Of a stretch of DNA of 33,033 nucleotides, positions 1,520-22,698 are shown piece after piece. Source of the DNA: Lachnospiraceae bacterium (lineage in GTDB: Bacteria; Bacillota; Clostridia; Lachnospirales; Lachnospiraceae); the NCBI GenBank assembly GCA_024691015.1, contig JAILOD010000152.1, positions 1 to 33,033 on the forward strand. The letters are read 5' to 3'. The notes under the pieces were generated by a model. The model was not told the origin of the DNA. It did no database searches and saw only the letters and a list, made by a program, of their open reading frames with translations. The position numbers and the translations under genes are program-made. Position 1 is the stretch's first letter. Every line of letters starts with the position of its first letter.

Positions 1520-2911
1520 ATGAATACTATTTTGGTAATTGATGACGAAAATATGAATCTAATAAGCACCAGGCATATTCTTGAAAGCTGCGGTTACAAT
1601 GTTGTGACTGCAGATTCCGGTGAGAAGGGTATAGCAATCCTGGAGGAGATTTCTATCGATCTCCTTCTTCTGGACGTTAAAATGCCCGGGATGGACGGGA
1701 TAGAGACCTTAAAGGAAATCAGAAGAAAATCGAGATTTTCGAAGCTTAAGGTTATATTCTTTACCTCCTCGGATTCGGAGGATGCACTGGTTCAGGCAGC
1801 GCATCTTTACGCCAGCGGTTTCCTGAAAAAACCCTGTATGCCTGAGGATATTAAGGAAATTGTCGGTTCGGTCCTGGAGGGAAGCTATGAAAAGACCATA
1901 CTTGCGGTGGATGATGAACCTATAAATCATATCTTTATCAGGAAGATTTTTGAAGGGGAATACAGAGTTGATTCGGTTTCTTCCGGCGCAGAGGCGCTTG
2001 AGTATTTGAATAATAACCTGCCCGATATTATCCTTATGGATCTGAAGATGCCTGAGGTAAGCGGTACGGATACATACCTGGCAATAAGAGAGGTAGAGGC
2101 GTGGTCGAAGATACCGGTTGTCTTCATTACGGCGGATGAGGACGGTGATACCGAGGTAAGGCTTCTTAAAATGGGTGCAAGGGACTTTATAACAAAGCCC
2201 TTTGTTCCTGAAGTGGCAAGGGAAAGGATAAAACGTATAATTGAGCTTTCCACACTTCAGGATTTCCTGCAATCCGAAGTTGATCGTAAGACCAACGACC
2301 TCGAAAAAGCATACAGGAGACTTAAGGACTTATCGGAACAGATCGTTATGGCCCTTTCCGGTACCATAGATGAAAAGGACCAGTATACAAACGGTCATTC
2401 AAAAAGAGTGGCTATCTATTCCAGAGAGATCGCCATAAGAATGAAAAAAAGCGAAGAAGAGATCAATAATATATTTTTTGCGGCAATGCTCCATGATGTC
2501 GGGAAGATAGGTATTCCGCTGGAGATCATAAATAAACCCGGAAGGCTTACCGATGAGGAATTTGAGATAATAAAGAGTCATACGGAAAAGGGGGCAAAGA
2601 TATTAAGTACGATCTCTGCATTACCAAGTCTTTCGGTTGGAGCTCACTGGCACCATGAAAGATACGATGGAACAGGATACCCCGATGGGTTAAAGGGGAC
2701 GGATATTCCCGAGATCGCGCGTATCATCTGTGTTGCGGACTGCTATGATGCAATGAGTTCAAACAGAAGCTACAGGCAGGCGCTGGCGCAACAGGTTGTA
2801 AGAAGTGAGATCGAAAAAGGAAGAGGGTCTCAGTTCGATCCCGCTATAGCGGATATTATGCTTGATATGATAAGTGAAGATAAAGATTATAAAATGAGGG
2901 AAGAAAAATGA
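1520..2911 (+). CDS. Response regulator with two REC domains and an HD-GYP phosphodiesterase domain
   Basis: Two receiver domains (ILVIDDEN...LLLLDVKMPGMDG; ILAVDDEP...IILMDLKMPEVSG), then HDVGKIGIP and HHERYDGTGYPDGLKGTDIPEIARIICVADCYDAM. Confidence 0.95.
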   Translation: MNTILVIDDENMNLISTRHILESCGYNVVTADSGEKGIAILEEISIDLLLLDVKMPGMDGIETLKEIRRKSRFSKLKVIFFTSSDSEDALVQAAHLYASGFLKKPCMPEDIKEIVGSVLEGSYEKTILAVDDEPINHIFIRKIFEGEYRVDSVSSGAEALEYLNNNLPDIILMDLKMPEVSGTDTYLAIREVEAWSKIPVVFITADEDGDTEVRLLKMGARDFITKPFVPEVARERIKRIIELSTLQDFLQSEVDRKTNDLEKAYRRLKDLSEQIVMALSGTIDEKDQYTNGHSKRVAIYSREIAIRMKKSEEEINNIFFAAMLHDVGKIGIPLEIINKPGRLTDEEFEIIKSHTEKGAKILSTISALPSLSVGAHWHHERYDGTGYPDGLKGTDIPEIARIICVADCYDAMSSNRSYRQALAQQVVRSEIEKGRGSQFDPAIADIMLDMISEDKDYKMREEK

Positions 2912-5439
2912 AGTTGAAAAAAAGAGGGGACGAAGTTTTTCACATTTCACACATTATCATTCTTTTATTCTATACAACTTTTTCGATAATACTGATGGCG
3001 GAAGCGATTCTCCTGGGGTGGGAGATCTGGCCGTTTCCGCTTATGGTAGCGGGCATCATCGGCAGTTGGATTTTGCACGTCTTTCAGAGCATACCGGAGG
3101 ATTATCGTACCTGGGTTTATGCAACATTTATTACCATAGAGCTGTTTTATTACGGTATTCATGAGAGCAGTGCCTATGATCTGGCAGGTGTTGTTATCGT
3201 CTGTATGCTTATGTTCACACTGACCGGCAAGAAGCGGCTGATCTATCTTTCTGTCATCACATATCTCATTGTTTTTTCCTACGATATTATTAATATGAGC
3301 TCAGAAGGCGGAGAATTTGATTCCCTGCTTATAACACGTAGTATGCTTCATGTAGCAATAGTTATAGTTGCTGCAATAGTTTTATGTACGCTTATAAGCA
3401 GGCTGGATATGTTGATCACAAATTCCGATGATGAGGTTGCACGGTTAAGTAAGGTATCCGAAAAAATGGATGATTTCCTTGCAAACCTTTCACACGAATT
3501 ACGTACCCCCGTAAATGCGGTTATCGGTTTGTCTGAGGTCCTTGGAGAAGAAAATTCCGATACCAAACAGGGAGAGAGAATAAATGCGATCTCCAAAGCA
3601 GGAAGAAGGATGGCAGATGAGATAAACGATATTCTGGATTATACGGAAATAGATCTGAAGAATATCTCTGTTAACAATGAGGTTTACATGGTTGCATCTA
3701 TTGTAAACGACCTTATGACACGCCTGAATGTGGCAGAAAACTATAAGACACAGCTTGTTGTGGATATAGAGCCGTCTGTTCCGGTTGAGCTTATAGGAGA
3801 TGCCGAAAAGATCGGGAAAACGTTGAGACATCTTATCACCAATGCACTTAAATATACAAGAGACGGTGGGGTATATGCTCATATTTATGCAACAAAAAGA
3901 GATTACGGAGTTAATCTCATCTTTGAGATCAGGGATACCGGGCCGGGGATCAGTGAGGGTGAGATGGAATTTATCTATGATAATTTTTACCAGTCCGATT
4001 CCGGAAGGACAAGAGAAGTCGGAGGACTTGGACTTGGAATTCCTATCGTTAACGGTTTTGCACAGGCAATGTCAGGTTTTCTCACCATAGAAAGTAAGCA
4101 GGGAGAGGGAACCGTGGCAAGGGTATGTATTCCTCAGAAGGTTAACAATTATGCCCCCTGTATTGCAATTGATACCGGAGAAAAGGTGTGCATAGCGGGC
4201 TTTTATGATTTTGAAACCACGTCACATCCGCGTGTCCGGCAATTTTATATGGATATGGTCAGCCATCTGGTGGAAGGGCTCTCGGTTCCCTATCACAGGA
4301 TCACATCCGTAAGTGAACTTGACAGGCTCAAAAGCATTTATAATATCACCCATATTTTCGTGGGAACCAGTGAGTATATTGCAAATAAGAAATATATAGA
4401 TTCACTGTTAAGTGAAATGAATGTTGCTGTTGTTGCGGATCCGGGCTTTAATGAAAAGCTGCCGGCAGAGATCTATCTTATGCCAAAGCCCTTCTATGGA
4501 ATTCAGATAGCCAATTTTCTGAATACTATCGGAAATGAGGACATTTCATCTGATACGAGAAGGATGTTCTGTCCGGGAATAAAGGTACTTGTCGTCGACG
4601 ATGAACCGATGAACCTTTATGTGGCAAGGGGAATATTCGAAAGCTATAAGATGAAGGTTACGACCGTTGACAGCGGATATGATGCATTAATGGTATTCAG
4701 TGAAGAGGATTTCGATATCATTTTTATGGATTATATGATGCCTGGTATGGATGGAACCGAAGCCATGAAGAGGCTTAAGACAGAGGCTGAACGAGAAAAA
4801 AGGGAGTGCACCGTGGTTGCACTTACGGCCAATGCAACCAGTCATGCAAAGGACATGTTTTTGTCGGAGGGATTCGACGGTTTTGTTGCAAAGCCTGTAG
4901 ATAACGCCGAGCTTGAAAGGACATTAAAGAGAGTTCTGCCAAAGAATGCAATAGTATATGAGGATATGCCATCGTTTGACAAAACAGGGGATGAAAGGTT
5001 ACCGGAGGAAGAAAAAAGCTTATATGAAACCAGCGAGTCGGAAGAACCGGAATCTGACGATGAGCTGTTGATACCGGGAATAGACATTGAGAAGGGAATG
5101 GCCTATTGCCAGAATGACATGGAGTTTTATATTTCGCTTCTTGGGGAATATATAAGGGATGCTGAAGAAAAGATAAACTCCTTAAATTCTATTTTTGAAA
5201 AGCTTGAACTGAAGAATTATGAGATCAGAACACACGCTATAAAGAGTACCTCCAGGATGATAGGTGCGATCAATATGTCGGAACGGGCGCAGAGGCTTGA
5301 AGAAGCTGCGGAAAGCGGAAATACCGACTATATTAAAAAATACCATCCGGATTTTGTAAAAGACTACGCTGAATTTTTATCCCTTATTGCAGTAAAGCTT
5401 ACAGCAATGAAAAACAGAACGGCAGGAGGGGAAATATGA
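2908..5439 (+). CDS. Membrane hybrid sensor histidine kinase (TM - HisKA/HATPase - degenerate REC - REC - HPt)
   Basis: N-terminal hydrophobic helices; NLSHELRTPVNAVIGLSEVL H-box; GGLGLGIPIV G-box; REC VLVVDDEPMN...IIFMDYMMPGMDG; HPt-like THAIKSTSRMIGA. ATGA overlap with the previous gene. Confidence 0.93.
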   Translation: MKLKKRGDEVFHISHIIILLFYTTFSIILMAEAILLGWEIWPFPLMVAGIIGSWILHVFQSIPEDYRTWVYATFITIELFYYGIHESSAYDLAGVVIVCMLMFTLTGKKRLIYLSVITYLIVFSYDIINMSSEGGEFDSLLITRSMLHVAIVIVAAIVLCTLISRLDMLITNSDDEVARLSKVSEKMDDFLANLSHELRTPVNAVIGLSEVLGEENSDTKQGERINAISKAGRRMADEINDILDYTEIDLKNISVNNEVYMVASIVNDLMTRLNVAENYKTQLVVDIEPSVPVELIGDAEKIGKTLRHLITNALKYTRDGGVYAHIYATKRDYGVNLIFEIRDTGPGISEGEMEFIYDNFYQSDSGRTREVGGLGLGIPIVNGFAQAMSGFLTIESKQGEGTVARVCIPQKVNNYAPCIAIDTGEKVCIAGFYDFETTSHPRVRQFYMDMVSHLVEGLSVPYHRITSVSELDRLKSIYNITHIFVGTSEYIANKKYIDSLLSEMNVAVVADPGFNEKLPAEIYLMPKPFYGIQIANFLNTIGNEDISSDTRRMFCPGIKVLVVDDEPMNLYVARGIFESYKMKVTTVDSGYDALMVFSEEDFDIIFMDYMMPGMDGTEAMKRLKTEAEREKRECTVVALTANATSHAKDMFLSEGFDGFVAKPVDNAELERTLKRVLPKNAIVYEDMPSFDKTGDERLPEEEKSLYETSESEEPESDDELLIPGIDIEKGMAYCQNDMEFYISLLGEYIRDAEEKINSLNSIFEKLELKNYEIRTHAIKSTSRMIGAINMSERAQRLEEAAESGNTDYIKKYHPDFVKDYAEFLSLIAVKLTAMKNRTAGGEI

Positions 5440-8117
5440 GACTGGTCAGATATCTTAAAAACTATGTCAGGGGAAATGAGCACGACATCAGGGAGCGAAG
5501 CTTTGTAAATATCTGTCTGCTTGTGGAGTTTTTTGTGCTCGTTATATATATATGGAATTTCTTTATAGGGGAGCACAGGACCAAGATCATTGCGCTTTCG
5601 ATGATTGTATTTGTGGTACCGGTGATATTGTTTCTGTCACTTAGATTTGATAAAACCGAGTTGGGAGCCGTCCTGCTGTGTATGTCCGGATCCCTGATCG
5701 TCTTTCCTGCAGTCTTCTTTACGGCAGGGGGGATGCGTGGCTGTGCGATTTTGTGGGATATCTTTTTCTTTGTTTTTATTTCGGTAAGTGTAAGAGGGTT
5801 ATTCAAGATATTTTTACTTATCCTGCATGCGGCATCTATTCTGGTCTGTTATATTGTCTCTTACATTTATCCCGCAACGGTATTACAGAGAAGCTATGAG
5901 ACGGAAATACTGGATTCCGCAGGTTCGGTGATCGCCGTAGGATTTTTGCTCGTTACGATAATGGAGTATCAGAGGCTCTTCTACATAGAAGAAAACAAGA
6001 GAACCAGAGAACAGAGTAAGAGAGTTGAAGAGTTAAATGCTTCACAGAACCGTTTCTTCTCAAGTATGAGCCACGAGATAAGAACTCCGATAAATACCAT
6101 AATAGGCTTTAATGAAATGATACTTCGGGAGGAGATCTCTGAGGAGGTGGCAGAGGATGCCATAAATGTACAATCTGCATCTAAGATGCTCTTAAGCCTT
6201 ATAAACGATATTCTGGATATGTCCAAAATAGAATCCGGACAGATGGAGCTTGTAAAAGGTACATATGCTCCCGGTGACATGTTAAGTGATATTGTAGGTA
6301 TGCTATGGATCAAGGCAAGAGAAAAGAATCTTGACTTCCATATTGAGGTGGATCCCTCTCTCCCGGTCAGAATGGTCGGGGATGAGATGAGGATAAAACA
6401 GGTAATTCTGAATGTTCTGAATAATTCCATTAAATATACTTCGGAAGGAAGTATTTCACTTTCCGTCGGATTCGAAAAGAAAAATGACAGAGAAGGAACC
6501 GTGGTATTCACTATTGCTGATACCGGCATGGGTATAAAGAAAGAAAACATACCTTATCTTTTCAGTGCTTTTAAGAGAGTGGATGAAGAGAAGAACCGGT
6601 ATATTGAAGGCACGGGACTGGGACTTAACATAGTTAAAGAACTGGTGGATCTTATGGGAGGCAAGATAAGCGTAAACAGTATCTATACTAAGGGCAGCAC
6701 GTTTATCATATATATTCCTCAGGAGATCTCCTCGGAAGAGAGTGTGGGTAAACTCAATCTTGAAGAGAGACATACACTGGGTAAGAGAAAAAACAGAAAG
6801 GTTTCTTTTGAGGCACCAAAGGCTAATATCCTGGTTGTAGATGACAATCACGCCAACGTGATGGTGGTGCAGAAGTTACTCCGTGACACCAAAATTCATA
6901 TAGATGCGGCAGAAAGCGGGCAAGAGGCCTTAAAGAAGACACAGTTCAATAAGTACGATCTGATATTTATGGATCATCTGATGCCCGAAATGGATGGTAT
7001 AGAATGTCTGCACGCGATAAGAAACCAGACCGGAGGCTTTAATACCCAGACACAGGTGGTAGTTCTTACGGCAAATTCCGGCGAGAAGAACAGAGTGCTG
7101 TATTCGAGAGAAGGCTTTGACGGTTATCTTTTGAAACCGGTCAGCAGTATAGAACTTGAAGAAGAACTGGTAAACAGGCTTCCCAAGGATTATGTCGCGA
7201 TCAAAGAAGAGGATGTTTTTGAAGCAGGTGATGAATACAGGACAAATATTTTTAAGCGAAAAATGCCGGTTATCATAACAACCGAAAGCGTAAGTGACCT
7301 TCCGGTTAAATTTTATGAGGATAAAGGTGTCGAAGTTATACCTTATTATGTTCATACAGAGAACGGAGATTTTCTGGATGGCCTGGAAACCGGTGTAAGA
7401 GGTCTGGTTTCCTATATCAAGGATGAAAAGAAAAATGCATATTCCGAAGCTCCCAAGGTGTCGGAGTATGAAGAGTTTTTTGCCAGAAATCTGTTGAAGG
7501 CCGTAAACATTATTCATATATCGATGAGCTCTTCTGTGGGATTGGGTTATAAGAGAGCACTGGAGGCTTCGGAATCCTTTGAGAATGTCACGGTCATAGA
7601 TTCAAAGCATCTTTCCAGCGGAATGGGACTTCTGGTGCTTGAAGCCGCCCGGCTTGTAAACGAGACGGATAATCCGGATGTGATCATAAACAGGATAATC
7701 AGATCAGAGAATAAGGTACATACCAGCTTTGTAGTGGATGATACGGAATACTTAAAACGTGCGGGAAGGCTTGCACCCGTTGTATATCACATTGCAACAT
7801 CCCTGTTTATTCATCCCGTGCTTACTCTTAGGAAAGGAAAAATGCTGCCCTCCGGTTTTTATTTCGGTACAAAAGAGCATGCAAGAAAAAAATACATAAA
7901 CAGGGTACTGTCCAATAAAAATATAGATACATCCCTACTGTTTGTGACCTATGTCGATCTGGAGATTGAAGAACAGAAGGAGATAGAGGAGCTGATAAAT
8001 AAAAAGAAACATTTTGACAGGATAATCTTCCAGTGTGCTTCCTCCGCCATTTCCGTTAACTGCGGACCCGGCTCGTTTGGTCTTTTATACAGGGAAAAAG
8101 ATAATACAGAGCAGTAA
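5436..8117 (+). CDS. Membrane hybrid histidine kinase (HisKA/HATPase - REC) with a C-terminal DegV family domain
   Basis: MSHEIRTPINTIIGFNEMI H-box; GTGLGLNIVKELV; REC ILVVDDNHAN...LIFMDHLMPEMDG...LLKPV; then from about aa 610 MPVIITTESVSDLPVKFYEDKGVEVIPYYVHTENGDFLDG...HISMSSSVGLGYKRALEAS...VTVIDSKHLSSGMGLLVLEAARL...FVVDDTEYLKRAGRL...HPVLTLRKGKM, typical of DegV/EDD proteins. Confidence 0.93.
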   Translation: MRLVRYLKNYVRGNEHDIRERSFVNICLLVEFFVLVIYIWNFFIGEHRTKIIALSMIVFVVPVILFLSLRFDKTELGAVLLCMSGSLIVFPAVFFTAGGMRGCAILWDIFFFVFISVSVRGLFKIFLLILHAASILVCYIVSYIYPATVLQRSYETEILDSAGSVIAVGFLLVTIMEYQRLFYIEENKRTREQSKRVEELNASQNRFFSSMSHEIRTPINTIIGFNEMILREEISEEVAEDAINVQSASKMLLSLINDILDMSKIESGQMELVKGTYAPGDMLSDIVGMLWIKAREKNLDFHIEVDPSLPVRMVGDEMRIKQVILNVLNNSIKYTSEGSISLSVGFEKKNDREGTVVFTIADTGMGIKKENIPYLFSAFKRVDEEKNRYIEGTGLGLNIVKELVDLMGGKISVNSIYTKGSTFIIYIPQEISSEESVGKLNLEERHTLGKRKNRKVSFEAPKANILVVDDNHANVMVVQKLLRDTKIHIDAAESGQEALKKTQFNKYDLIFMDHLMPEMDGIECLHAIRNQTGGFNTQTQVVVLTANSGEKNRVLYSREGFDGYLLKPVSSIELEEELVNRLPKDYVAIKEEDVFEAGDEYRTNIFKRKMPVIITTESVSDLPVKFYEDKGVEVIPYYVHTENGDFLDGLETGVRGLVSYIKDEKKNAYSEAPKVSEYEEFFARNLLKAVNIIHISMSSSVGLGYKRALEASESFENVTVIDSKHLSSGMGLLVLEAARLVNETDNPDVIINRIIRSENKVHTSFVVDDTEYLKRAGRLAPVVYHIATSLFIHPVLTLRKGKMLPSGFYFGTKEHARKKYINRVLSNKNIDTSLLFVTYVDLEIEEQKEIEELINKKKHFDRIIFQCASSAISVNCGPGSFGLLYREKDNTEQ

Positions 8118-8142
8118 ACAGCTTAATTTGCGTATATGCCTG

Positions 8143-8176
8143 CCCGGTGACATTAAATGTCACCGGGTGTTTTTTG
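8143..8176 (+). terminator. Rho-independent terminator of the signalling cassette
   Basis: CCCGGTGACATT-A-AATGTCACCGGG (12-bp perfect stem) followed by TGTTTTTT. Confidence 0.9.
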
Positions 8177-11682: not shown

Positions 11683-14600
11683 ATGAAAAAATATCTTTTC
11701 CCGTTTAACTTACGGAGTATCGCGATCATTATAATAGGCTTTGTTTTTAATCTCATGGGACGGGGGATCACTGAGAATTATTCTTTGCCTCTGTTTGGTG
11801 ATACCATCGGAACCTTCTGGACGGCCATTATGCTTGGGCCGGTTGCCGGAAGCGTTACCGGTATACTTACAAATCTTGTCTCCCTTATCTGGGCTCCTTT
11901 CGATTGGATATATCTTTTTGTCAATGTCACGGGTGCTGTTATAGTAGGACATCGTCTTTACAAGAGGGACAGAGTGGATCTGTTTGCCGTTGTGTCCACT
12001 GCAGTCATGGCAATTCTTGCGATGACAATAGTTTCCACACCATTAAATATGATGCTGAACAGTGGATTCACCGGGAATGCCTGGGGGGATGCTCTTATTG
12101 AAATGCTGTCTATGTATATTGGGGTTAAGGTTATCTGTCAAATAGCGGGGGAACTTATCGTGAATATTCCCGATAAGCTTCTTTCACTTATCATCATTGT
12201 TTATTCCATTCGTTTGTTTGAAAAGATGGGCGTCACAATAAGGCCTGATGAGGAGGAAAAAAGAAAAGAGGCAAAGGATGCGGGGAGTCTTATATTTTTT
12301 ATAGGCTTGCTTTCGGCACTTTCTTTTTATTCTGTACGCTCTGAGACTGTTTATGCCGCTGATAATGTTGATTTCAATTCCGATTTTGTTTCAACAATTT
12401 ATGGGGTAAATGATGGTCTGAATTCTGTGGAGATCAATTCCGTTACACAGACCGGAGACGGCTATATGTGGGCAGGTGCTTATTCCGGGATTTATCGCTA
12501 TGACAGTACGGAATTCAAACAGTTTATTCCCGGTAACCGTATCAGCAATGCGATCTATCTGTTCACTGATAGGAAAGGGAGACTGTGGGTCTGCACCAAT
12601 GACGCCGGAGTTTTCGTGTATGACACGGATACCAGAAGGGGCTCGGTTATCTCAACTGAAGACGGACTGAGTTCAGATTATGTCAGAGGTATTTGTGAGG
12701 ACCGGAACGGAAACATATATCTGGCCACAACATCTTCCATAAATTGTCTTAGGACTTATGTAGGACAGGATAAGCTTGGAGCTGACGGTAGGACAGAAGA
12801 GGATCAGCTGTTTACTTCCTGCGAAATAAGTGAGATCAGGCCAATAGAGGAAATATCAAATGTTTCATCTCTGTTATGTACAAAACACAACGATATCTGC
12901 GGTATTACCGAGACCGGACTGTTGTTTTCCTTAAGTGACGGGGTTCTGATGGACACGATGGAGAGCTCTCTTTCGAGTATGTTTTATACGGCTGCCGGAT
13001 ATGACGGAGATTCACTTTTGCTTGTAGGTACAACATCAAATTCACTTGATCTTGTCCGCATAAAAAACGGAAATCTGATCCGGGAGGATACCATTGAGCT
13101 TCCTCATTGTTCGGGCGTTAACAGGATTCTGTACAAGGACAGATATAAGGGTTTTTTTATATGCTGTGATAACGGTATTGCCTTTGTAGACAAAGAGGGG
13201 AATTTCCAGGATCTTACAATGGACGGCTTTGATTCCGCAATAGCCGATGTAACGGTTGATAAGCAGGGGAATATCTGGTTTTCATCTACAAAACATGGAA
13301 TTCTCAAAATGTCAGTCGATCCGTTCAGCGATCTTTTTGATAAGATAGGTGAGTCTGACAGGGTGGTAAATTCCATATGTATAGATAATAATATCGTTTA
13401 TATCGGTACGGATGACGGTGTTATAAAAACAGATATAAAAGCCGGTAAAAAACTGTATGACGAAAAGCTTTCGCATTTCGATGGCACAAGGATAAGACAT
13501 ATATATAAAGACACAAAGGGAGGCTTCTGGTTTTCGACCTACGGTAAGGAAGGTCTGGTATATTTAAGCCCGGACGGGAATTTTACTGTATATAACGATG
13601 AGAATTCCGGGGCACTCGGTTCGAGGTTCAGGTTTGTACGTGAGCTTAGAGACGGACGTATATTAGCGGCTTCGAATGAAGGGCTTACGTATTTTAAAGA
13701 CAACAAGGTGGTAAAGACTCTCGGAGTGAATGACGGTATTGATGTGCCCAAAATACTTGCCTGCGATGAAGCTGAGGACGGCACTCTTATAATCGGAACC
13801 GACGGTGGAGGTGTATATGAGATAAAGGATGACAAGGTATATAAGCATTGGGGAAAGGCTGAAGGTCTTTTAAGCCTGGTAGTCATGAAGATAGTACCCG
13901 TATCCGGTGGGAGTATATATGTTGCCAGTAACGGGCTTTACTATCATCCTCATAATGCACTTATAAAAAAGCTTGTAAATTTCCCGTATCAGAATAACTA
14001 TAATATATATATAAGCGAAGACCACAGGGCTTTTATAAGCTCGAGTGCGGGGCTTTATGTAGCAGAAGAGGCTGACATTATAAGTGACAATGAGGACTAT
14101 CCGTATTCCCTGCTTAACAGAAAATATGGGCTGAATACAACTCTTACATCCAATTCATTCGATGGGTTCTGTGAAGATAAAATGTATCTTTGCTGTACGG
14201 ATGGAGTTAAAGTTTTGAATATAAATGAATACGATAAGGTTGATCCGAATTACAGCATAGTGTTAAACAGCCTTACCAAAGAAGGAGAAGATGCAAAGCT
14301 GACTAAAGGAATGTATATACTTGAACCAGGTAACGGACAGGTTCTTATTACACCCGCGGTATTAAATTATACAGCCACCGATCCGCTGGTAAGCGTTTTT
14401 CTGGAAGGAGTTGATAAGGAAGCGATAGTCGCAAGACAGTCGGCTATGGAAACCATGTATTATCCCGAGATACCGTTTGGTGATCATAAGCTCATAGTAA
14501 GCGTTTTATCCGATTCGGGACAGAGTATAAAAGAAAAGGTATTCCTTATCCATAAAGATGCAAAGCTTTACGAGAAGACCTATTATAAGGTTTATCTTAT

Positions 14601-16572
14601 AATCTGCTCTATGATCCTTTTTATCCTTATTATCTGGCTTCTTGCAAAGATGGGAAATATGGCCGTTATCAACAGGCAGTATAACGAGATAAGGGAAGCC
14701 AAGGAAGATGCCGAGCTTGCCAATCAGGCAAAGTCCAGGTTTTTGGCTCAGATGTCTCATGAGATAAGGACACCTATAAATGCGGTTCTCGGTATGGATG
14801 AGATGATCTTAAGAGAGACGACCGATCCGGATATCAGGAGCTATGCAAGAGATATATACACAGCCGGACAGACTCTGCTTTCGCTGATAAACGATATTCT
14901 GGATTCATCAAAGATGGAGTCCGGAAAGATGGAGATAGTTCCCGAGGATTATGAGCTTTCGGGAATGATAAAGGATCTGGTCAACATGATAACAGCCCGT
15001 GCACAGGCGAAAGATCTGAAGCTTATCACAGAGGTGGATAAGGAGCTGCCGAGGGTGTTAAACGGTGATGATATAAGGATAAAACAGGTAGTTACCAACA
15101 TCCTTACGAACGCTGTTAAATATACAAATACCGGCTCTGTTACATTGAGAGTCGGAGGAGAGAGAAGGGGTGATATACTTCTTTTAAAGGTAGAGGTTGA
15201 GGACACCGGAATAGGTATAAAAGAAGAGGATCTGCCTAAGCTGTTTATGGCTTTCCAGCGTATTGAAGAAAACCGGAACCGTACCATAGAGGGAACCGGG
15301 CTTGGAATGAACATAACCATCCAGTTGCTCGAAATGATGGGTTCTGAGCTTAAAGTAAGCTCCATATACGGAAAGGGATCGAAATTTTCCTTCGAGCTTG
15401 AACAGCCTGTTGTTGACGACTCGCCGATAGGGGACTTTGATAAGAGATTAAAAGAAGATGACATTTTTGAAACCGAAAGTAAGGCCTTTACAGCCGAAAA
15501 TGCCCATGTACTCGTCGTGGATGATAACTCCATGAACAGGAAGGTGTTTAAGAGTCTGTTAAAACCGCTTCTGGTTAAAGTAAGCGAGGCGGGCAGCGGG
15601 GCAGAGGCTCTTGCAAAGGTTGGAATGGAAAGCTTCGATATGATCTTCATGGATCACATGATGCCCGAAATGGATGGCGTGGAAACTATGAAGAAAATAA
15701 AGGAACAAGAGGAGTTTAAGGATATACCGGTCTTTGTTCTTACCGCAAATGCGGTTGCCGGCGCAAAGGATGAATACATAAAAATGGGCTTTGACGGTTT
15801 TCTGTCAAAACCGGTGGCTTTAGATAAGCTTGAAGATGCTATGAGAGAAACCCTTCCGGATGAACTCATTCATTATCTGACACCTGAGGAGGCAGCAGAA
15901 CAAAGAGGCGTAAGCAGTTCAAAGAATACTCTTCCCGAGGGGCTTCCGGATGTGGACGGCCTGGATTGGAGCTATGCCTTTATGCATCTGCCTGGTGAAG
16001 AGCTTCTTCGCGAAAATGTCGGATCCTTTTTCGATATCATTTTACCTCAGGCGGATAAGCTGGACAGGTTCTATGCTGCACTTAAGGATAATGAAAATGA
16101 TGAGGCACTGGAAGAATATCGCATTCTGGTTCACGGAATGAAGAGTGCTGCAGCAACCGTTGGAATAGTTCCTCTGGCAGGTATGGCAAAGGTACTGGAA
16201 TTCGCCGCTCGTGATAAAAACCTGAAGGTGATATACTCTATGCATGAGACCTTTATATATGAATGGAGGTCCTATGAAGAAAAGCTTAAGGCGGTGATCG
16301 GTGAAAGAGAAAGCACAGAAGAAGCAGCCGAAAAAAAGAACGGGGACAGCGCAATACTTGAAGCCAGCTTTGATATCCTTTCCACAGCACTTGAAGATAT
16401 GGATATTGATGCGGCGGATGATATAATGAATAAGCTTACCGGTTACAGCTTTGGTGAAGATATTGACGGGCTTATAAAAAAACTGAACGGAGCGGTGAAA
16501 AACCTTGATGAGGATGAAGCACATGCTATTATGGATCAGATAAAAAATAATATGGAGAATAACGGAAAATGA
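11683..16572 (+). CDS. Giant hybrid sensor: ECF-S-like membrane domain, Reg_prop beta-propeller, Y_Y_Y, HisKA/HATPase, REC, HPt
   Basis: N-terminal multi-TM YSLPLFGDTIGTFWTAIMLGPVAGSVTGILTNL; repeated propeller strands (GYMWAGAYSGIYRYD, GRLWVCTNDAGVFVYD, GNIWFSSTKHGILKM); MSHEIRTPINAVLGMDEMI; GTGLGMNI; REC VLVVDDNSMN...MIFMDHMMPEMDG; HPt VHGMKSAAATVG. Confidence 0.93.
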   Translation: MKKYLFPFNLRSIAIIIIGFVFNLMGRGITENYSLPLFGDTIGTFWTAIMLGPVAGSVTGILTNLVSLIWAPFDWIYLFVNVTGAVIVGHRLYKRDRVDLFAVVSTAVMAILAMTIVSTPLNMMLNSGFTGNAWGDALIEMLSMYIGVKVICQIAGELIVNIPDKLLSLIIIVYSIRLFEKMGVTIRPDEEEKRKEAKDAGSLIFFIGLLSALSFYSVRSETVYAADNVDFNSDFVSTIYGVNDGLNSVEINSVTQTGDGYMWAGAYSGIYRYDSTEFKQFIPGNRISNAIYLFTDRKGRLWVCTNDAGVFVYDTDTRRGSVISTEDGLSSDYVRGICEDRNGNIYLATTSSINCLRTYVGQDKLGADGRTEEDQLFTSCEISEIRPIEEISNVSSLLCTKHNDICGITETGLLFSLSDGVLMDTMESSLSSMFYTAAGYDGDSLLLVGTTSNSLDLVRIKNGNLIREDTIELPHCSGVNRILYKDRYKGFFICCDNGIAFVDKEGNFQDLTMDGFDSAIADVTVDKQGNIWFSSTKHGILKMSVDPFSDLFDKIGESDRVVNSICIDNNIVYIGTDDGVIKTDIKAGKKLYDEKLSHFDGTRIRHIYKDTKGGFWFSTYGKEGLVYLSPDGNFTVYNDENSGALGSRFRFVRELRDGRILAASNEGLTYFKDNKVVKTLGVNDGIDVPKILACDEAEDGTLIIGTDGGGVYEIKDDKVYKHWGKAEGLLSLVVMKIVPVSGGSIYVASNGLYYHPHNALIKKLVNFPYQNNYNIYISEDHRAFISSSAGLYVAEEADIISDNEDYPYSLLNRKYGLNTTLTSNSFDGFCEDKMYLCCTDGVKVLNINEYDKVDPNYSIVLNSLTKEGEDAKLTKGMYILEPGNGQVLITPAVLNYTATDPLVSVFLEGVDKEAIVARQSAMETMYYPEIPFGDHKLIVSVLSDSGQSIKEKVFLIHKDAKLYEKTYYKVYLIICSMILFILIIWLLAKMGNMAVINRQYNEIREAKEDAELANQAKSRFLAQMSHEIRTPINAVLGMDEMILRETTDPDIRSYARDIYTAGQTLLSLINDILDSSKMESGKMEIVPEDYELSGMIKDLVNMITARAQAKDLKLITEVDKELPRVLNGDDIRIKQVVTNILTNAVKYTNTGSVTLRVGGERRGDILLLKVEVEDTGIGIKEEDLPKLFMAFQRIEENRNRTIEGTGLGMNITIQLLEMMGSELKVSSIYGKGSKFSFELEQPVVDDSPIGDFDKRLKEDDIFETESKAFTAENAHVLVVDDNSMNRKVFKSLLKPLLVKVSEAGSGAEALAKVGMESFDMIFMDHMMPEMDGVETMKKIKEQEEFKDIPVFVLTANAVAGAKDEYIKMGFDGFLSKPVALDKLEDAMRETLPDELIHYLTPEEAAEQRGVSSSKNTLPEGLPDVDGLDWSYAFMHLPGEELLRENVGSFFDIILPQADKLDRFYAALKDNENDEALEEYRILVHGMKSAAATVGIVPLAGMAKVLEFAARDKNLKVIYSMHETFIYEWRSYEEKLKAVIGERESTEEAAEKKNGDSAILEASFDILSTALEDMDIDAADDIMNKLTGYSFGEDIDGLIKKLNGAVKNLDEDEAHAIMDQIKNNMENNGK

Positions 16573-17324
16573 TCAAAATACTGTTTATCGGAAAAATGGA
16601 TAATGAAATGCAGGAGAAGAACGAATATCTGAGGAACTTTGCGAGAGTTGTGCTTTGTGTTGAGACTACACAGAATGCAGCTGCAATGCTTGAGCTTACG
16701 GATCCTGATCTGGTACTGGTCCTGCTTCAGGGTGTTTATGATGTGGATATGAGTATTTTCGAGGTTTTATGTCGTGACTATCCCTCCATTCCTGTTCTTA
16801 CCGTGGGGAGCGTCGGAGAGTTCAGGAATTTTTCAACCTATTTCAGCGGTAATCAGTTTGAAAATCTATTGAGTCCTGTGGAAAATGAGGATCTCTTACT
16901 TGCGATCTGCAGACGTTTGTCGCTTACACCGGATGAAGTGAAGGGTGTAAGTGGAGCCGATACAGGGAAGAAGCATCTTCTTCTGGTTGATGATAATGCA
17001 ATGACGCTTCGTTCATTAAAGAGCATGCTCGAGAGTAAATATAAGATATCACTGGCTAATTCGGGAATGAAGGCTATGACAAGTATCGGAAAAGACAGAC
17101 CGGATCTCATACTTTTAGATTATGAAATGCCGGTGTGCGACGGAAGGCAGACTCTGGAAATGATAAGAGCGGATGATGAGATAAAGGATATCCCTGTGAT
17201 CTTTCTTACCGGAGTAAATGACAGAGAGCATATCCAGGCGGTTTTAAAGCTGCAACCCTCCGGCTATCTTTTAAAACCGGCGGATCAGCAGACACTTATG
17301 GACACCATAGAAAAGGCTTTGTGA
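16569..17324 (+). CDS. Double-receiver protein (N-terminal degenerate REC + canonical REC)
   Basis: The second half LLLVDDNAMTLRSLKSMLES...LILLDYEMPVCDGRQ...LLKPAD is a canonical REC. The first half (ILFIGKMDNE...LVLVLLQGV...LLSPVENED) has a REC-like layout without the phosphoacceptor Asp. ATGA overlap with the upstream kinase. Confidence 0.88.
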   Translation: MIKILFIGKMDNEMQEKNEYLRNFARVVLCVETTQNAAAMLELTDPDLVLVLLQGVYDVDMSIFEVLCRDYPSIPVLTVGSVGEFRNFSTYFSGNQFENLLSPVENEDLLLAICRRLSLTPDEVKGVSGADTGKKHLLLVDDNAMTLRSLKSMLESKYKISLANSGMKAMTSIGKDRPDLILLDYEMPVCDGRQTLEMIRADDEIKDIPVIFLTGVNDREHIQAVLKLQPSGYLLKPADQQTLMDTIEKAL

Positions 17325-17345
17325 TCTTATATGGGAGGGGAAAAA

Positions 17346-19544
17346 TTGAGTGTAGATAATAAGGAAACAAATAATCCGGATAAAGACGAAGGAAAGCTTG
17401 CAAGTATTACTTCGGGAAAAACGGAAAATAAAAAAAGCAAACGGATGCAGTTATTGCTGCCGGCAGTTTCCTGCTTAATAGGAATCCTTCTCAATGTCGG
17501 AGGAAAACAACTGGCGGCATCGCTGTCTCTTCCGTTTTATTTTGATACACCGGGAATGATACTTTGCGGAATACTTGGGGGATATATTCCTGCTATTGTC
17601 GTTGCCATCCTGACAAATATCTTAAACTATTTCAGCGATCCTGTATCCATTTATTATTTGATAACCAGCGCATTGATAGCACTTGTTACAACATATCTTC
17701 ATAAAAGAGGGAAACTGAAAAAAATCGGAGGTTTTTTTCTTCTGCTTTTCCTGCTTGCATTAATCGGAGGCGGTATAGGCGGAGCAATAACGCATTTTAT
17801 CTACGGGATCGGAATAGATGATAAGAATGGACCTTTTATTCATTTTCTTATGGGCTACGGGATGAGTGAGACAGCTTCATGGTATATTTATACCTTCATT
17901 GTGGATCTTGTTGACAAGGCGATCACACTGATATTTGTCTCTCTTGTTCTTTACCTTATTCCGAAAGCTGTCTGGCCTAAATTTGAATTGGTATATTGGC
18001 TTCAGGAGCCTTTCAAGGAAACCTCCGCTCAGAAAAAGGCTAGGAGAAAACTCTTTTCTTTTAAATCCCTGTCTTCAAAGATATTTATGGTACTGATTTT
18101 GTTTGCCGGCATCACCTCTGCCATTTGTATAGTTGTAAGTCTTGTACTGTTTAACAATTATACCGTGGATCAGCATACCTATCTTGCTCAGGGAGTGGCC
18201 AAAATGGCTGCGGCAACCGTTAATGGGGATGAGGTGGACAGATATTTAAGCGAGGGAGATGATTTTGACAGCTATAAGGAAACCTACAGGCTCCTTACAA
18301 ATATTCTTAAGAATACTCCTGACGTGTCATACGTTTATGTATATAAGATAATGTCTGACGGCTGTCACGTTGTTTTCGATCCCGATACAGAGACGGTTAA
18401 GGGAGCGAAGCTTGGTGAGGTAATACCCTTTGACGAGAGCTTTATGGCATATCTTCCGGATCTGTTAAGCGGAAAGAAGATAGATACTGTAATTTCGAAT
18501 GATAAATTCGGATGGCTTTTAACGGTTTATGAACCGGTTTACGATTCCGGCGGAGAATGTGTCTGCTATGCGGCAGTAGATATTGCAATGGCAGATATCG
18601 GAAATTACAAGGTGGAGTTTGTATTTAAGATCCTGATAGTGTTCAGCAGTTTTCTTATCCTTTTCTTTGCTTTTGTTATCTGGCTTGCAAAGTATCATCT
18701 GATAATGCCCATAAATGCTATGGCGCATACCGCTGATGAATTTGATTACTCTGATGAATATGCCAGAAAGACCAATGTTAAAAAGCTCTCGAGCCTCGAC
18801 ATAAGGACGGGTGAAGAAATAGAACGGCTATACAAGGCTTTCCTTACTACAACTGAGGAGAGTACACGATACTTTGAGGCCAATAAAAAGCAGCATGAAA
18901 AGATAGAAGAGATGCAGAGCAGTCTGGTTATGGTTCTGGCGGATCTGGTTGAAAACAGGGATGAGCTTACAGGTGATCATGTCCGAAAGACGGCAGCCTA
19001 TGTTGATATCATCTGCCACAAGATGAGAGAGCTGGGTTATTACAAGGACCAGCTGACGGACAAGTTCATAACCGATGCCGTAAGAAGTGCTCCTCTTCAT
19101 GATATAGGAAAGATATCCATACCCGATATGATCCTTAAAAAGCCGGGGAAGCTTACCGATGAAGAATTTGAAATTATGAAGACACATTCCACGGAGGGTA
19201 TGAAGGATATAGAAAAAGCCATAGAAACGCTTCCCGATGCCGACTATCTTGAGGAAGCAAGGAATATGGCCGGGTATCATCACGAAAAATGGAACGGAAA
19301 AGGCTATCCCAAAGGGCTCTCCGGTGAAGAGATACCGCTATCGGCCCGTATTATGGCTGTGGCTGATGTGTTTGATGCTCTGGTGTCAAAACGTTGTTAC
19401 AAGGAGGCTTTCAGCTATGATAAGGCTATGAATATCATAAAAGAAGATGCGGGAACACATTTTGACCCTCTTGTTGCGGATGCATTTATAAAGGCAAGAG
19501 ATCAGATCGAAGAAGTGGCAAACAGGTTTGCCGGAGAAACATAA
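17346..19544 (+). CDS. Membrane HD-GYP protein with ECF-S-like N-terminal module and Cache-like extracytoplasmic region
   Basis: LSLPFYFDTPGMILCGILGGYIPAIVVAILTNILNYFSDPVSIYYLITSA; second TM pair flanking a sensor region; HDIGKISIPDMILKKPGKLTDEEFEIMKTHS...YHHEKWNGKGYPKGLSGEEIPLSARIMAVADVFDAL. TTG at 17346 follows GGGAGGGG, so it is preferred over the ATG at 17331. Confidence 0.9.
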   Translation: MSVDNKETNNPDKDEGKLASITSGKTENKKSKRMQLLLPAVSCLIGILLNVGGKQLAASLSLPFYFDTPGMILCGILGGYIPAIVVAILTNILNYFSDPVSIYYLITSALIALVTTYLHKRGKLKKIGGFFLLLFLLALIGGGIGGAITHFIYGIGIDDKNGPFIHFLMGYGMSETASWYIYTFIVDLVDKAITLIFVSLVLYLIPKAVWPKFELVYWLQEPFKETSAQKKARRKLFSFKSLSSKIFMVLILFAGITSAICIVVSLVLFNNYTVDQHTYLAQGVAKMAAATVNGDEVDRYLSEGDDFDSYKETYRLLTNILKNTPDVSYVYVYKIMSDGCHVVFDPDTETVKGAKLGEVIPFDESFMAYLPDLLSGKKIDTVISNDKFGWLLTVYEPVYDSGGECVCYAAVDIAMADIGNYKVEFVFKILIVFSSFLILFFAFVIWLAKYHLIMPINAMAHTADEFDYSDEYARKTNVKKLSSLDIRTGEEIERLYKAFLTTTEESTRYFEANKKQHEKIEEMQSSLVMVLADLVENRDELTGDHVRKTAAYVDIICHKMRELGYYKDQLTDKFITDAVRSAPLHDIGKISIPDMILKKPGKLTDEEFEIMKTHSTEGMKDIEKAIETLPDADYLEEARNMAGYHHEKWNGKGYPKGLSGEEIPLSARIMAVADVFDALVSKRCYKEAFSYDKAMNIIKEDAGTHFDPLVADAFIKARDQIEEVANRFAGET

Positions 19545-19626: not shown

Positions 19627-20079
19627 GTGGAAGAAAACGTAAAAGAATATAAAAAAGGCGAAATTATATTCGAAGAGGGTACACAACAGTCTAAAATGTA
19701 TGAGGTCGCTTACGGTAAGGTAGGTATATACAAGGACTATGGTAAAGCTTCAGAGGTGAAGCTGGCAGATATCAACAAGGGGTATTTCGGAGAAATGGGT
19801 TTCGCCAGAAGCTTAAAGAGAAATGCCACAGCGGTAGCACTCGAAGATACCGGGGTTATCGAGATAGATGAAAAAGTTATGAGTGACTATTTTGAAAAAG
19901 AATCGATAAAGGTAGATATTCTCCTTCAGGACCTCAGTAAGCGTGTAAGAGAAGCTGACAGAAAATATGTCAGGGCCTGTGGTCTTGTCGATCAGTATCT
20001 TACTGCTGACAGTAAGGGTGCAGTACAGGATCCCGAATTGATAGCTGAGATGAAAAACTTTGTTTCGGGATTGGCTTAA
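19627..20079 (+). CDS. Stand-alone cyclic nucleotide-binding domain protein
   Basis: CNBD phosphate-binding cassette FGEMGFARSLKRNATAVAL; 150 aa with no recognisable HTH; GTG start after AGGAGG. Confidence 0.88.
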   Translation: MEENVKEYKKGEIIFEEGTQQSKMYEVAYGKVGIYKDYGKASEVKLADINKGYFGEMGFARSLKRNATAVALEDTGVIEIDEKVMSDYFEKESIKVDILLQDLSKRVREADRKYVRACGLVDQYLTADSKGAVQDPELIAEMKNFVSGLA

Positions 20080-20096
20080 TAAGGAGGAGAATAAAA

Positions 20097-20561
20097 ATGG
20101 CAGATAAATTGATCGATTATAAAAAAGGTGACATTATTTCCAAACAGGGTTCATACGAACTTTGGATGTATGAGATTCTTTCGGGTACCGTAGGAATTTA
20201 CCAAAACTACGGTGAATCCGATGAAAAGAAGATAGCTGAAGTAAATGATAATTATGTTGGCGAGATGGGGCTTATTTCATCAATGCCCAGAAATGCAACA
20301 ATAGTTGCAATGGATGATGTTCTGGTAGCACAGATAGAAGAACAGACCTTCGTTGAATATTTCCGTGAGCATCCCGATAAGATATATTCACTGATCTGTT
20401 GTCTTGCAGACAGGCTTGCAAGTATCGATACAGAGGTTCAGTCCGTAAGTAATACTATAAAGGATATGATAGCTGTTGAAGAAAAGAATGAAGAAAAGAA
20501 TGGCGCTTTGGTTAATGCCATGAAGAAATTCAGTTCAATCTTTAAGAGCAGGAGCGTATAA
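20097..20561 (+). CDS. Stand-alone cyclic nucleotide-binding domain protein (paralog of 19627)
   Basis: VGEMGLISSMPRNATIVAMDDVLVAQIEE; same length and layout as the upstream neighbour; no HTH. Confidence 0.88.
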   Translation: MADKLIDYKKGDIISKQGSYELWMYEILSGTVGIYQNYGESDEKKIAEVNDNYVGEMGLISSMPRNATIVAMDDVLVAQIEEQTFVEYFREHPDKIYSLICCLADRLASIDTEVQSVSNTIKDMIAVEEKNEEKNGALVNAMKKFSSIFKSRSV

Positions 20562-21316
20562 TGATTCAGATCCAGCCGCGTTATTCGCAAAAAGAAGAAT
20601 GGTTTAGGTTGGCTAAAGAGAGAACTCTAAGATTTGAAATCTTAGAGTTCTCTTCAGCTTTCCTGAACAATGATATAAAGGACGATGTATATAACTGGTA
20701 CCGGGATACCACCTTATGTGATTCCATCCATGGTGTATTTATGGATAATTATCCGGTAAGTCCGGATGAGGATATAAAAACACTTTCCCGAAAAAAATGT
20801 GAGCATAGTGTGTTTCAGGCGGATATGGTAGGGGCGGATAATATAGTATTTCATTCGACGGCGTTGACCTTCTGCCGTGACGGAAAACTGGAAAATTATT
20901 GGGGGAAGGATGCTGCGGAGTATTATAGTGAACTTGCAGAGAAGTCAGATAAAAATATCTTTATAGAAAATTTTGCGGATGTTGATTATGTTCCTCTTAA
21001 GATAATGATGGAAAACGTAAAAACCGAAAAGGTTAAGATCTGTTTTGACATAGGACATGCCAACTTCTCCAGGCATTCTCTTAAGGAATGGTTTGATGAG
21101 ATAGGTGAGTATATCGGGTATATGCATATTTCCGATAATCACGGACTTTGGGATGATCATCTAAATCTGGGAGAGGGCAATGTGGATTTCGCCCTGGCCA
21201 GTGATTTTGTAAAAAGTCTCGGAAGGGATATTCCTATCACAATGGAGGTTCCTACGATAGAAAGCGTTGAGAATTCTCTTGCCTTTCTTGAAAAAAATCA
21301 TTATTTCGGATATTAA
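20561..21316 (+). CDS. Xylose isomerase-like TIM barrel (sugar phosphate isomerase/epimerase family)
   Basis: RFEILEFSSAF...NIFIENFADVDYVPLKIMME...VKICFDIGHANFSRHSLKEWFDEIGEYIGYMHISDNHGLWDDHLNLGEGNVDF. TAATG overlap with the preceding CNBD gene. Confidence 0.85.
   Translation: MIQIQPRYSQKEEWFRLAKERTLRFEILEFSSAFLNNDIKDDVYNWYRDTTLCDSIHGVFMDNYPVSPDEDIKTLSRKKCEHSVFQADMVGADNIVFHSTALTFCRDGKLENYWGKDAAEYYSELAEKSDKNIFIENFADVDYVPLKIMMENVKTEKVKICFDIGHANFSRHSLKEWFDEIGEYIGYMHISDNHGLWDDHLNLGEGNVDFALASDFVKSLGRDIPITMEVPTIESVENSLAFLEKNHYFGY
20619..20653. repeat. Perfect 35-bp palindrome (17-bp arms, 1-nt centre) inside the TIM-barrel coding sequence
   Basis: AGAGAACTCTAAGATTT-G-AAATCTTAGAGTTCTCT, read directly. 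Confidence 0.97.
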
Positions 21317-21333
21317 GGAGTTGGGAGTCTAAA

Positions 21334-22698
21334 ATGGACAGAAGTTATGACAGTTTAAATGCACGGGTTATGCAGGATATGAACGAGGGAGTTCTTGTTA
21401 TCGGAAATGACGGGAAGATCCTTATGACAAATAACAAAACCATCAGTATCCTGGAAAAGGAAAAAGAGGAGCTTGAGGGAAGAAAGTTTGCAACCGTTTT
21501 TTTCGGAGAAGAGGAAAATGATGCGTTTAATCAGACTATATTAGATGCGATCTATGATATGGACAAGGTTCACAGCAATGTTGTGTCCTATCATACAGGG
21601 GATCGGGTTAAATATATAAATGTTATAAGCTCGGGGCTTAAGGAAGATAACCGTATCATAGGTGTTATTATCGTTCTCTCGGATATAACTGAGCTTGTAG
21701 AGGTAAGAGAACATTTGAAGATGATGCGGCAGATCGAGGAACTTAATGAACAGCTTGAGGAAAGAAACCGCTTCATTAGAAAAGCCTTCGGGAGATATCT
21801 TTCGGATGAGATAGTACAGAAGGTGCTGGATACTCCTGACGGGCTCAGCGTGGGCGGAAATATGGAACATATAACGGTTCTTATGAGCGATCTGAGAGGC
21901 TTCACAGCCATGTGTGAATCGGTCCCACCGGGAGATCTTATCACAGTCCTTAACCACTACCTGGACGGAATGGGTAAGATCATAAAGGAAATGAATGGAA
22001 CCGTTATAGAATATGTGGGCGACGGGATTTTAGCCATATTCGGAGCACCGGTGAAGGATGAGGACCACGGGTTGAATGCCGTTATCGCTGCGGTAAAAAT
22101 GCAGCAAGAAATGGAAAAGATCAATAAATGGAATGAAGCTCATGGTTATCCCATTCTGAAGATGGGTATCGGTATAAACACAGGAGATGCCGTAGTCGGA
22201 AACATGGGAAGCGAATATGCCATGAAATACAATGTTATCGGAAGTTGTGTAAATCTTTGCGGAAGGATCGAAAGTTATACTACAGACGGACAGATCTTTA
22301 TTTCTGACGCAACAAAGGAGGAGATAAAGACAACTCTTACCATAGATGATGAGATGAAGATCACTCCGAAGGGAGTTAAGGAAGAGATGCTTATCCATTC
22401 CGTTAAGGGAGTGGGTGAGCCCTATAATATAAGTTATAAGTTGAAAAAGAAAAAGATAACACCTCTTGAAAAAAAGGAGAAGGTAACTCTTCATACCTTG
22501 GAAGGAAAGCATGTTAGTACTGAGGGGACGGTGTCCTATATAACAGGCAGATCCAGTGAAGAAATCCTTCTGGAAACCAAGGTAAAACTTGACATTTTCG
22601 ATAATGTGGTTTTAAAGGGTGAAGAATGCGACCTGTATTGTAAGGTGACGGCCCAGGGGTCTAAGGGTATTGTACTTACAGTAACCGGAAAAAACTGA
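21334..22698 (+). CDS. PAS domain / class III nucleotide cyclase
   Basis: PAS-like N-terminus; FGRYLSDEIVQKVL; VLMSDLRGFTAMCESVPPGDLITVLNHYLDGM...VIEYVGDGILAIFGAPVKDEDH...MGIGINTGDAVVGNMGSEYAMKYNVIGSCVNLCGRIES. Both metal Asp residues and the transition-state Asn/Arg are present. Confidence 0.93.
   Translation: MDRSYDSLNARVMQDMNEGVLVIGNDGKILMTNNKTISILEKEKEELEGRKFATVFFGEEENDAFNQTILDAIYDMDKVHSNVVSYHTGDRVKYINVISSGLKEDNRIIGVIIVLSDITELVEVREHLKMMRQIEELNEQLEERNRFIRKAFGRYLSDEIVQKVLDTPDGLSVGGNMEHITVLMSDLRGFTAMCESVPPGDLITVLNHYLDGMGKIIKEMNGTVIEYVGDGILAIFGAPVKDEDHGLNAVIAAVKMQQEMEKINKWNEAHGYPILKMGIGINTGDAVVGNMGSEYAMKYNVIGSCVNLCGRIESYTTDGQIFISDATKEEIKTTLTIDDEMKITPKGVKEEMLIHSVKGVGEPYNISYKLKKKKITPLEKKEKVTLHTLEGKHVSTEGTVSYITGRSSEEILLETKVKLDIFDNVVLKGEECDLYCKVTAQGSKGIVLTVTGKN

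Follow-up and report, generated by a model that had tools for sequence, protein, structure and literature searches.

A hybrid histidine kinase with a C-terminal DegV domain in a putative two-kinase phosphorelay of the Lachnospiraceae

DegV domains are known as stand-alone fatty-acid carriers for FakA. The locus described here raises the question of whether such a domain has become part of a sensor kinase and, if so, what it does there. The locus lies in a stretch of 33,033 nt, referred to below as the window, from Lachnospiraceae bacterium (GCA_024691015.1, contig JAILOD010000152.1, positions 1 to 33,033, forward strand), and encodes an 893-residue hybrid histidine kinase ending in a DegV domain. 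No description of an HK-REC-DegV fusion was found in the literature searched, which covered few subscription journals and is thus weak evidence of novelty; proteins of this architecture are surely already present in protein databases, filed under generic names.

Architecture of the HK-REC-DegV protein

The gene (5436..8117) starts with ATG, overlaps the gene upstream by 4 bp and lies, like the other genes and the hairpin of its operon, on the plus strand. The open reading frame, Pfam and a full-length structural model together give the order TM6-HisKA-HATPase-REC-DegV, in agreement with the first-pass annotation, which had described membrane helices, HisKA/HATPase, a receiver and an in-frame DegV domain and is borne out by Pfam and hydropathy. 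The N-terminal membrane region (5436..6005) has six helices predicted by hydropathy and the full-length model, which places them at residues 18-44, 48-70, 74-96, 104-118, 122-144 and 154-231. By both methods the last of these continues into the kinase helix, and neither reveals a sizeable extracellular domain. HisKA (residues 204-268, 6045..6239; Pfam, 2.3e-17) carries the phospho-acceptor His213 (6072-6074), which is histidine in 119 of 120 relatives. It is followed by HATPase_c (residues 315-430, 6378..6725; Pfam, 2.4e-26), in which Asn330 and Asp362 are conserved among relatives, and by the receiver (Response_reg; residues 465-577, 6828..7166; Pfam, 2.6e-25) with phospho-acceptor Asp513 (6972-6974), an aspartate in 119 of the 120. 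All residues of a hybrid kinase are thus present in the window protein (H-box His, N-box Asn, G1 Asp, and the receiver Asp and Lys); a Pfam domain search of the protein found no HPt domain.

The HisKA-HATPase-REC core has its best NCBIfam scores with the BarA/TorS-type hybrid kinases, with which it shares that core. The 893-residue protein nevertheless falls far under every curated cut-off and has its DegV domain where the BarA/TorS type has a further receiver or an HPt domain. Membership of the BarA/GacS equivalog was rejected, the score being 298.5 bits against an NCBIfam cut-off of 890.

The C-terminal domain (residues 613-887, 7272..8096; Pfam, 2.7e-40) is a complete member of the DegV family with the EDD/DegV fold, and belongs to a lineage distinguished by an asparagine described below. 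It matches the Pfam DegV profile (PF02645) from position 3 to 279 of 280 with 138.9 bits (cut-off 27) and NCBIfam TIGR00762 with 153.6 bits (cut-off 99.7). The domain was modelled with a pLDDT of 93.6, and the top 45 Foldseek matches in the PDB are all DegV or FakB proteins, several with bound fatty acid, with TM-scores of up to about 0.85 (1pzx, FakB1) and of 0.82-0.85 for the fatty-acid-loaded structures. The structural comparison with FakB and DegV that had been proposed for this region returned those proteins as the closest solved folds. The earlier span of residues 600-893 does hold a complete DegV domain, but its bounds take in part of a disordered linker (residues 591-607, 7206..7256; pLDDT below 50), which indicates that the domain is tethered to the receiver rather than rigidly coupled to it. 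In the model, this disorder agrees with a DegV domain that acts in trans. The full-length domain and fold are common to the fused DegV and the DegV/FakB proteins (PF02645; FakB1, 1pzx, 2dt8), whereas the fused domain differs in being joined to HK-REC and in the polar character of its membrane-anchor position. Phage proteins were also considered as relatives of the domain and set aside as ordinary weak DegV matches of about 27% identity.

Recurrence and descent of the fusion

It could be argued that an assembly or frameshift error has joined separate kinase and degV genes, a danger that the first-pass annotation itself had raised. The genome is fragmented (340 contigs), and the kinase and the DegV are separate genes in some relatives. 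Such an artefact was looked for in the relatives and can be excluded, barring the slimmest of chances, because a search of 200 genomes of the family, almost every one from a different genus, found the same fused frame in at least 34, and because 120 non-identical full-length proteins were collected from many assemblies, isolate genomes included, though this set is redundant by descent and its domains were called with profiles built from the window proteins. The fused frames are of about 890-930 or 1110-1160 residues. The phospho-acceptor His, N-box Asn, G1 Asp, and receiver Asp and Lys are intact in 118-120 of the 120, so that kinase and receiver can be regarded as intact in the group as in the window protein. 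Spacing is nearly constant, at 31-35 residues between kinase and receiver in all 120 and 31-36 between receiver and DegV in 116 of 118. Mean pairwise dN/dS is 0.04 for the kinase, 0.06 for the receiver, about 0.09 for DegV and 0.15 for the membrane part, and the value for DegV indicates purifying selection on that domain.

A scan of GTDB species genomes with a seven-row alignment returned 494 relatives, the best 80 of which come nearly all from Lachnospiraceae or other rumen and gut Clostridia and include the isolate genomes Ruminococcaceae bacterium AB4001 and YAD3003 and Lachnospiraceae bacterium P6B14. In a class-wide draw of genomes, fusions outside the Lachnospiraceae were confined to a single genus from one further family. 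One contig labelled Treponema (L149) has the operon, for which transfer and mis-binning are both possible. Two loci (L153, L164) have tandem duplicate HK-REC-DegV genes after a single HK-REC-HPt gene, and one (L219:6887-9803) has a split form, possibly a frameshift, in which an HK-REC gene (559 residues) overlaps a DegV-HPt gene (414 residues).

In a tree built from 68 DegV domains, those of the fused proteins form one clade (99/97). Its sister (90/84) consists of four unfused DegVs that have the same asparagine, lack Arg205 (FakB1 numbering) and are each encoded directly behind an HK-REC-HPt gene, in four genomes, and the FakB-like stand-alone proteins fall outside both clades (100/100). The first tree built, with 117 rows, likewise places the unfused DegVs at the base. 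Since the asparagine, the loss of Arg205 and the operon are common to both lines, they were present in their ancestor; the fusion would have arisen after that ancestor, or have been lost in the sister line. Since four genomes have a DegV of this lineage as a separate gene behind HK-REC-HPt, the domain can probably act in trans, and the sister lineage offers the best evidence that DegV works with the kinase pair with no need of a covalent link.

The operon and its candidate phosphorelay

In the window, the DegV kinase is the third of three genes joined by 4-base overlaps. The first (1520..2911) encodes by Pfam a 463-residue REC-REC-HD-GYP response regulator, a probable c-di-GMP phosphodiesterase, and the second (2908..5439; open reading frame and Pfam) an 843-residue partner hybrid kinase, HK-REC-HPt. 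A strong hairpin resembling an intrinsic terminator, with a 13-pair stem followed by TTTTTT, lies 24 bases past the stop codon of the third gene (8141..8169) and probably marks the end of the operon; promoter-like sites are no commoner than in shuffled sequence. The contig opens inside another HD-GYP gene (2-1459; HD_5 match in the first 83 residues, then an unassigned tail of about 370 residues). Further along, 11683-19544 holds a second phosphorelay, with a 1629-residue Reg_prop hybrid kinase (HK-REC and a weak HPt), a 251-residue protein with a C-terminal receiver and a 737-residue HD-GYP protein. It is followed at 19627-22698 by consecutive genes for two cyclic-nucleotide-binding proteins of one domain each (150 and 154 residues), a TIM-barrel protein and a PAS-adenylate/guanylate cyclase protein, likely a cyclic nucleotide signalling cluster to judge by these predicted products.

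The kinase pair is conserved in most of the group. The gene directly upstream of the DegV kinase encodes HK-REC-HPt in 97 of 120 loci and a fragment of one in 5 more, the median gap between the two genes is -1 bp, and 73 of 101 gaps are zero or less. In 51 of 69 loci the gene before the pair encodes an HD-GYP domain; in some others it encodes REC-GGDEF. Downstream, genes for a family 3 solute-binding lipoprotein and for REC-GGDEF are common; the lipoprotein gene often comes directly 3' of the DegV kinase (for example L116:8883-9686 and L106:8883-9692), with REC-GGDEF often next, and it is possible that the lipoprotein is an extracellular sensor for the pair. In one subclade, genes for a receiver, a CheA-like and a CheW-like protein and an MCP-type receptor stand upstream of the pair (L070, L072, L073, L074, L077, L079, L081 and L082, with a Pfam check on L082), which suggests coupling to a chemosensory array.

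Nearly all loci have one HPt domain per kinase pair. In the window pair it is supplied only by the upstream partner. In seven loci the DegV protein has its own C-terminal HPt, and there the upstream HK-REC lacks one in all seven; in three others (L058, L064, L078) the HPt is a separate neighbouring gene. The HPt-bearing DegV form arose perhaps twice in the first tree, so these are few independent events, though the pattern holds in each. The genome of the window also encodes a DegV-HPt protein (L075:3-1559), truncated by the end of its contig and with about 20 extra residues in the lid region, the part that in FakB covers the ligand.

An arrangement of this kind has been described in P. aeruginosa, where the hybrid kinase LadS requires its own kinase and receiver and signals via the HPt of GacS in the order H1 LadS > D1 LadS > H2 GacS > D2 GacA (PMC4866733). 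As here, an HPt-less HK-REC kinase is paired with an HK-REC-HPt kinase. The systems differ in that both kinases here belong to one operon, in the phosphotransfer, which is a prediction here, and in the output, which is GacA and small RNAs there and probably HD-GYP/GGDEF regulators here. To our knowledge, LadS has no DegV domain. By this analogy, HK-REC-DegV would be the second kinase of a phosphorelay of two hybrid kinases that most likely controls c-di-GMP turnover. Phosphate would pass from His213 to Asp513, from there to the HPt of the upstream partner, and then to the receivers of the HD-GYP protein, a putative target suggested by its place in the gene neighbourhood, whose phosphorylation would alter c-di-GMP. 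The domains, intact residues, operon, HPt partition, lineage and selection were computed directly; the phosphate route and the c-di-GMP output we infer from the LadS/GacS precedent. The two-kinase relay itself is judged probable. The first-pass annotation had suggested a lipid-coupled phosphorelay but had left out two products of the operon, the partner kinase with its HPt and the response regulator for c-di-GMP. The phosphorelay part of that suggestion is likely, and the lipid part is only partly supported, given the residue changes described below.

Some observations sit less easily with a relay. RetS acts on GacS by heterodimerisation, and the present pair may do the same, as the partner has a kinase and receiver of its own. 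The position C-terminal to a receiver is often that of output domains, and DegV sits there. A sister pair of DegV kinases (L069, L071) has receivers too diverged for the profile and lacks the partner kinase; the DegV kinase gene of L071 is followed by two sensor-GGDEF genes.

The ligand pocket and the role of the DegV domain

In S. aureus FakB1, the fatty-acid carboxylate network comprises Ser171-His270-Thr62-Ser95 (PMC8892158). Arg173 and Arg205 are reported to be completely conserved in FakB (PMC8892158), Arg173 being required for catalysis and Arg205 docking FakA and the membrane (PMC8892158, PMC9136124). For comparison, 126 fused DegVs were aligned to FakB1, numbered after a chain carrying A121I, a change that leaves the positions used unaffected. 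The window protein retains Arg173 (Arg778) and the hydroxyl of Thr62 (Ser670) but has Asn875 (8058-8060) for His270, Gly702 for Ser95, Ala776 for Ser171, Phe810 (7863-7865) for Arg205 and Phe808 for Lys203. The His270 position is asparagine in 119 of the 126 fused domains, and those of Arg205 and Lys203, both FakA- and membrane-docking residues in FakB, are mostly hydrophobic, with arginine at the former in about 1%. Arg173 is kept in 82 of 120 fused relatives, the Thr62 position is mostly Ser or Thr, and that of the membrane anchor Trp180 is mostly polar. In contrast, His270, Arg205 and Lys203 are kept in all 25 FakB-like stand-alone rows, which represent 23 distinct proteins (two were counted twice with different starts) chosen from the same family and the genome of the window among good matches to the window. 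That genome encodes FakA separately, as well as two FakB-type stand-alone DegVs that keep His and Arg.

These changes make the fused domain a DegV but not a FakB, membership of which was rejected on the absence of Arg205 and His270, and the FakB-like role suggested earlier is not supported. The sequences point to descent from fatty-acid-binding DegVs with loss of the charges for docking FakA and the membrane and of the carboxylate-network histidine; acyl binding is possible, though not implied. As seven fused relatives lack the asparagine and further pocket positions vary, ligand binding need not be uniform.

What, then, might the domain do? A globular module in the cytosol, flexibly tethered C-terminal to the receiver, it would most likely regulate the relay via a small ligand, plausibly amphipathic or acyl. 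Such regulation is weakly inferred and is favoured by a little; for a c-di-GMP two-kinase phosphorelay and a ligand-responsive DegV taken together, the chances stand about even. Alternatively, DegV could bind no ligand and serve for protein interaction or docking, keeping the two kinases, or the HPt, in contact. The altered docking and carboxylate residues, the unfused form in the same type of operon, the position of DegV between receiver and HPt in seven proteins and the flexible linker would all suit a scaffold, which would however need neither Arg173 nor a hydroxyl at Thr62 and does not explain why the whole 280-residue fold has been kept at a dN/dS of about 0.09; docking is therefore rather unlikely.

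Both lipid readings of the first-pass annotation appear less likely still. A long-chain fatty-acid sensor that gates the kinase would be a special case of regulation by a small ligand, and is compatible with the fold of fatty-acid-loaded DegV/FakB, Arg173 and the serine hydroxyl, but His270>Asn and Ser95>Gly break the carboxylate network in the window protein and the ligand might carry another head group, which leaves this sensor doubtful. Improbable is the converse, that phosphorylation of the receiver governs whether a FakB-like carrier binds or releases lipid and so feeds lipid metabolism: DegV does occupy an output position, with a FakB fold and FakA in the genome, yet Arg205, which FakA binding requires, is missing, as is Lys203, the Trp180 position is polar, the same genome has separate FakB-type DegVs, and the surrounding genes encode c-di-GMP and signalling proteins rather than lipid enzymes. 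Returning to the ligand-regulated relay, a fuller account may be offered tentatively, in which a distinct DegV lineage, first an operon partner and then fused, senses a non-FakB ligand and sets c-di-GMP through a shared-HPt relay widespread in gut and rumen Clostridia.

A DegV lineage that has been placed inside a phosphorelay, selected across many species and stripped of its FakA-docking residues suggests that the fold has found a new use in sensing or regulation. The pattern of one HPt per kinase pair makes the route of the relay directly testable. If the ligand is a lipid, the system would provide a direct route from the state of membrane or host lipids to c-di-GMP in a dominant gut family.
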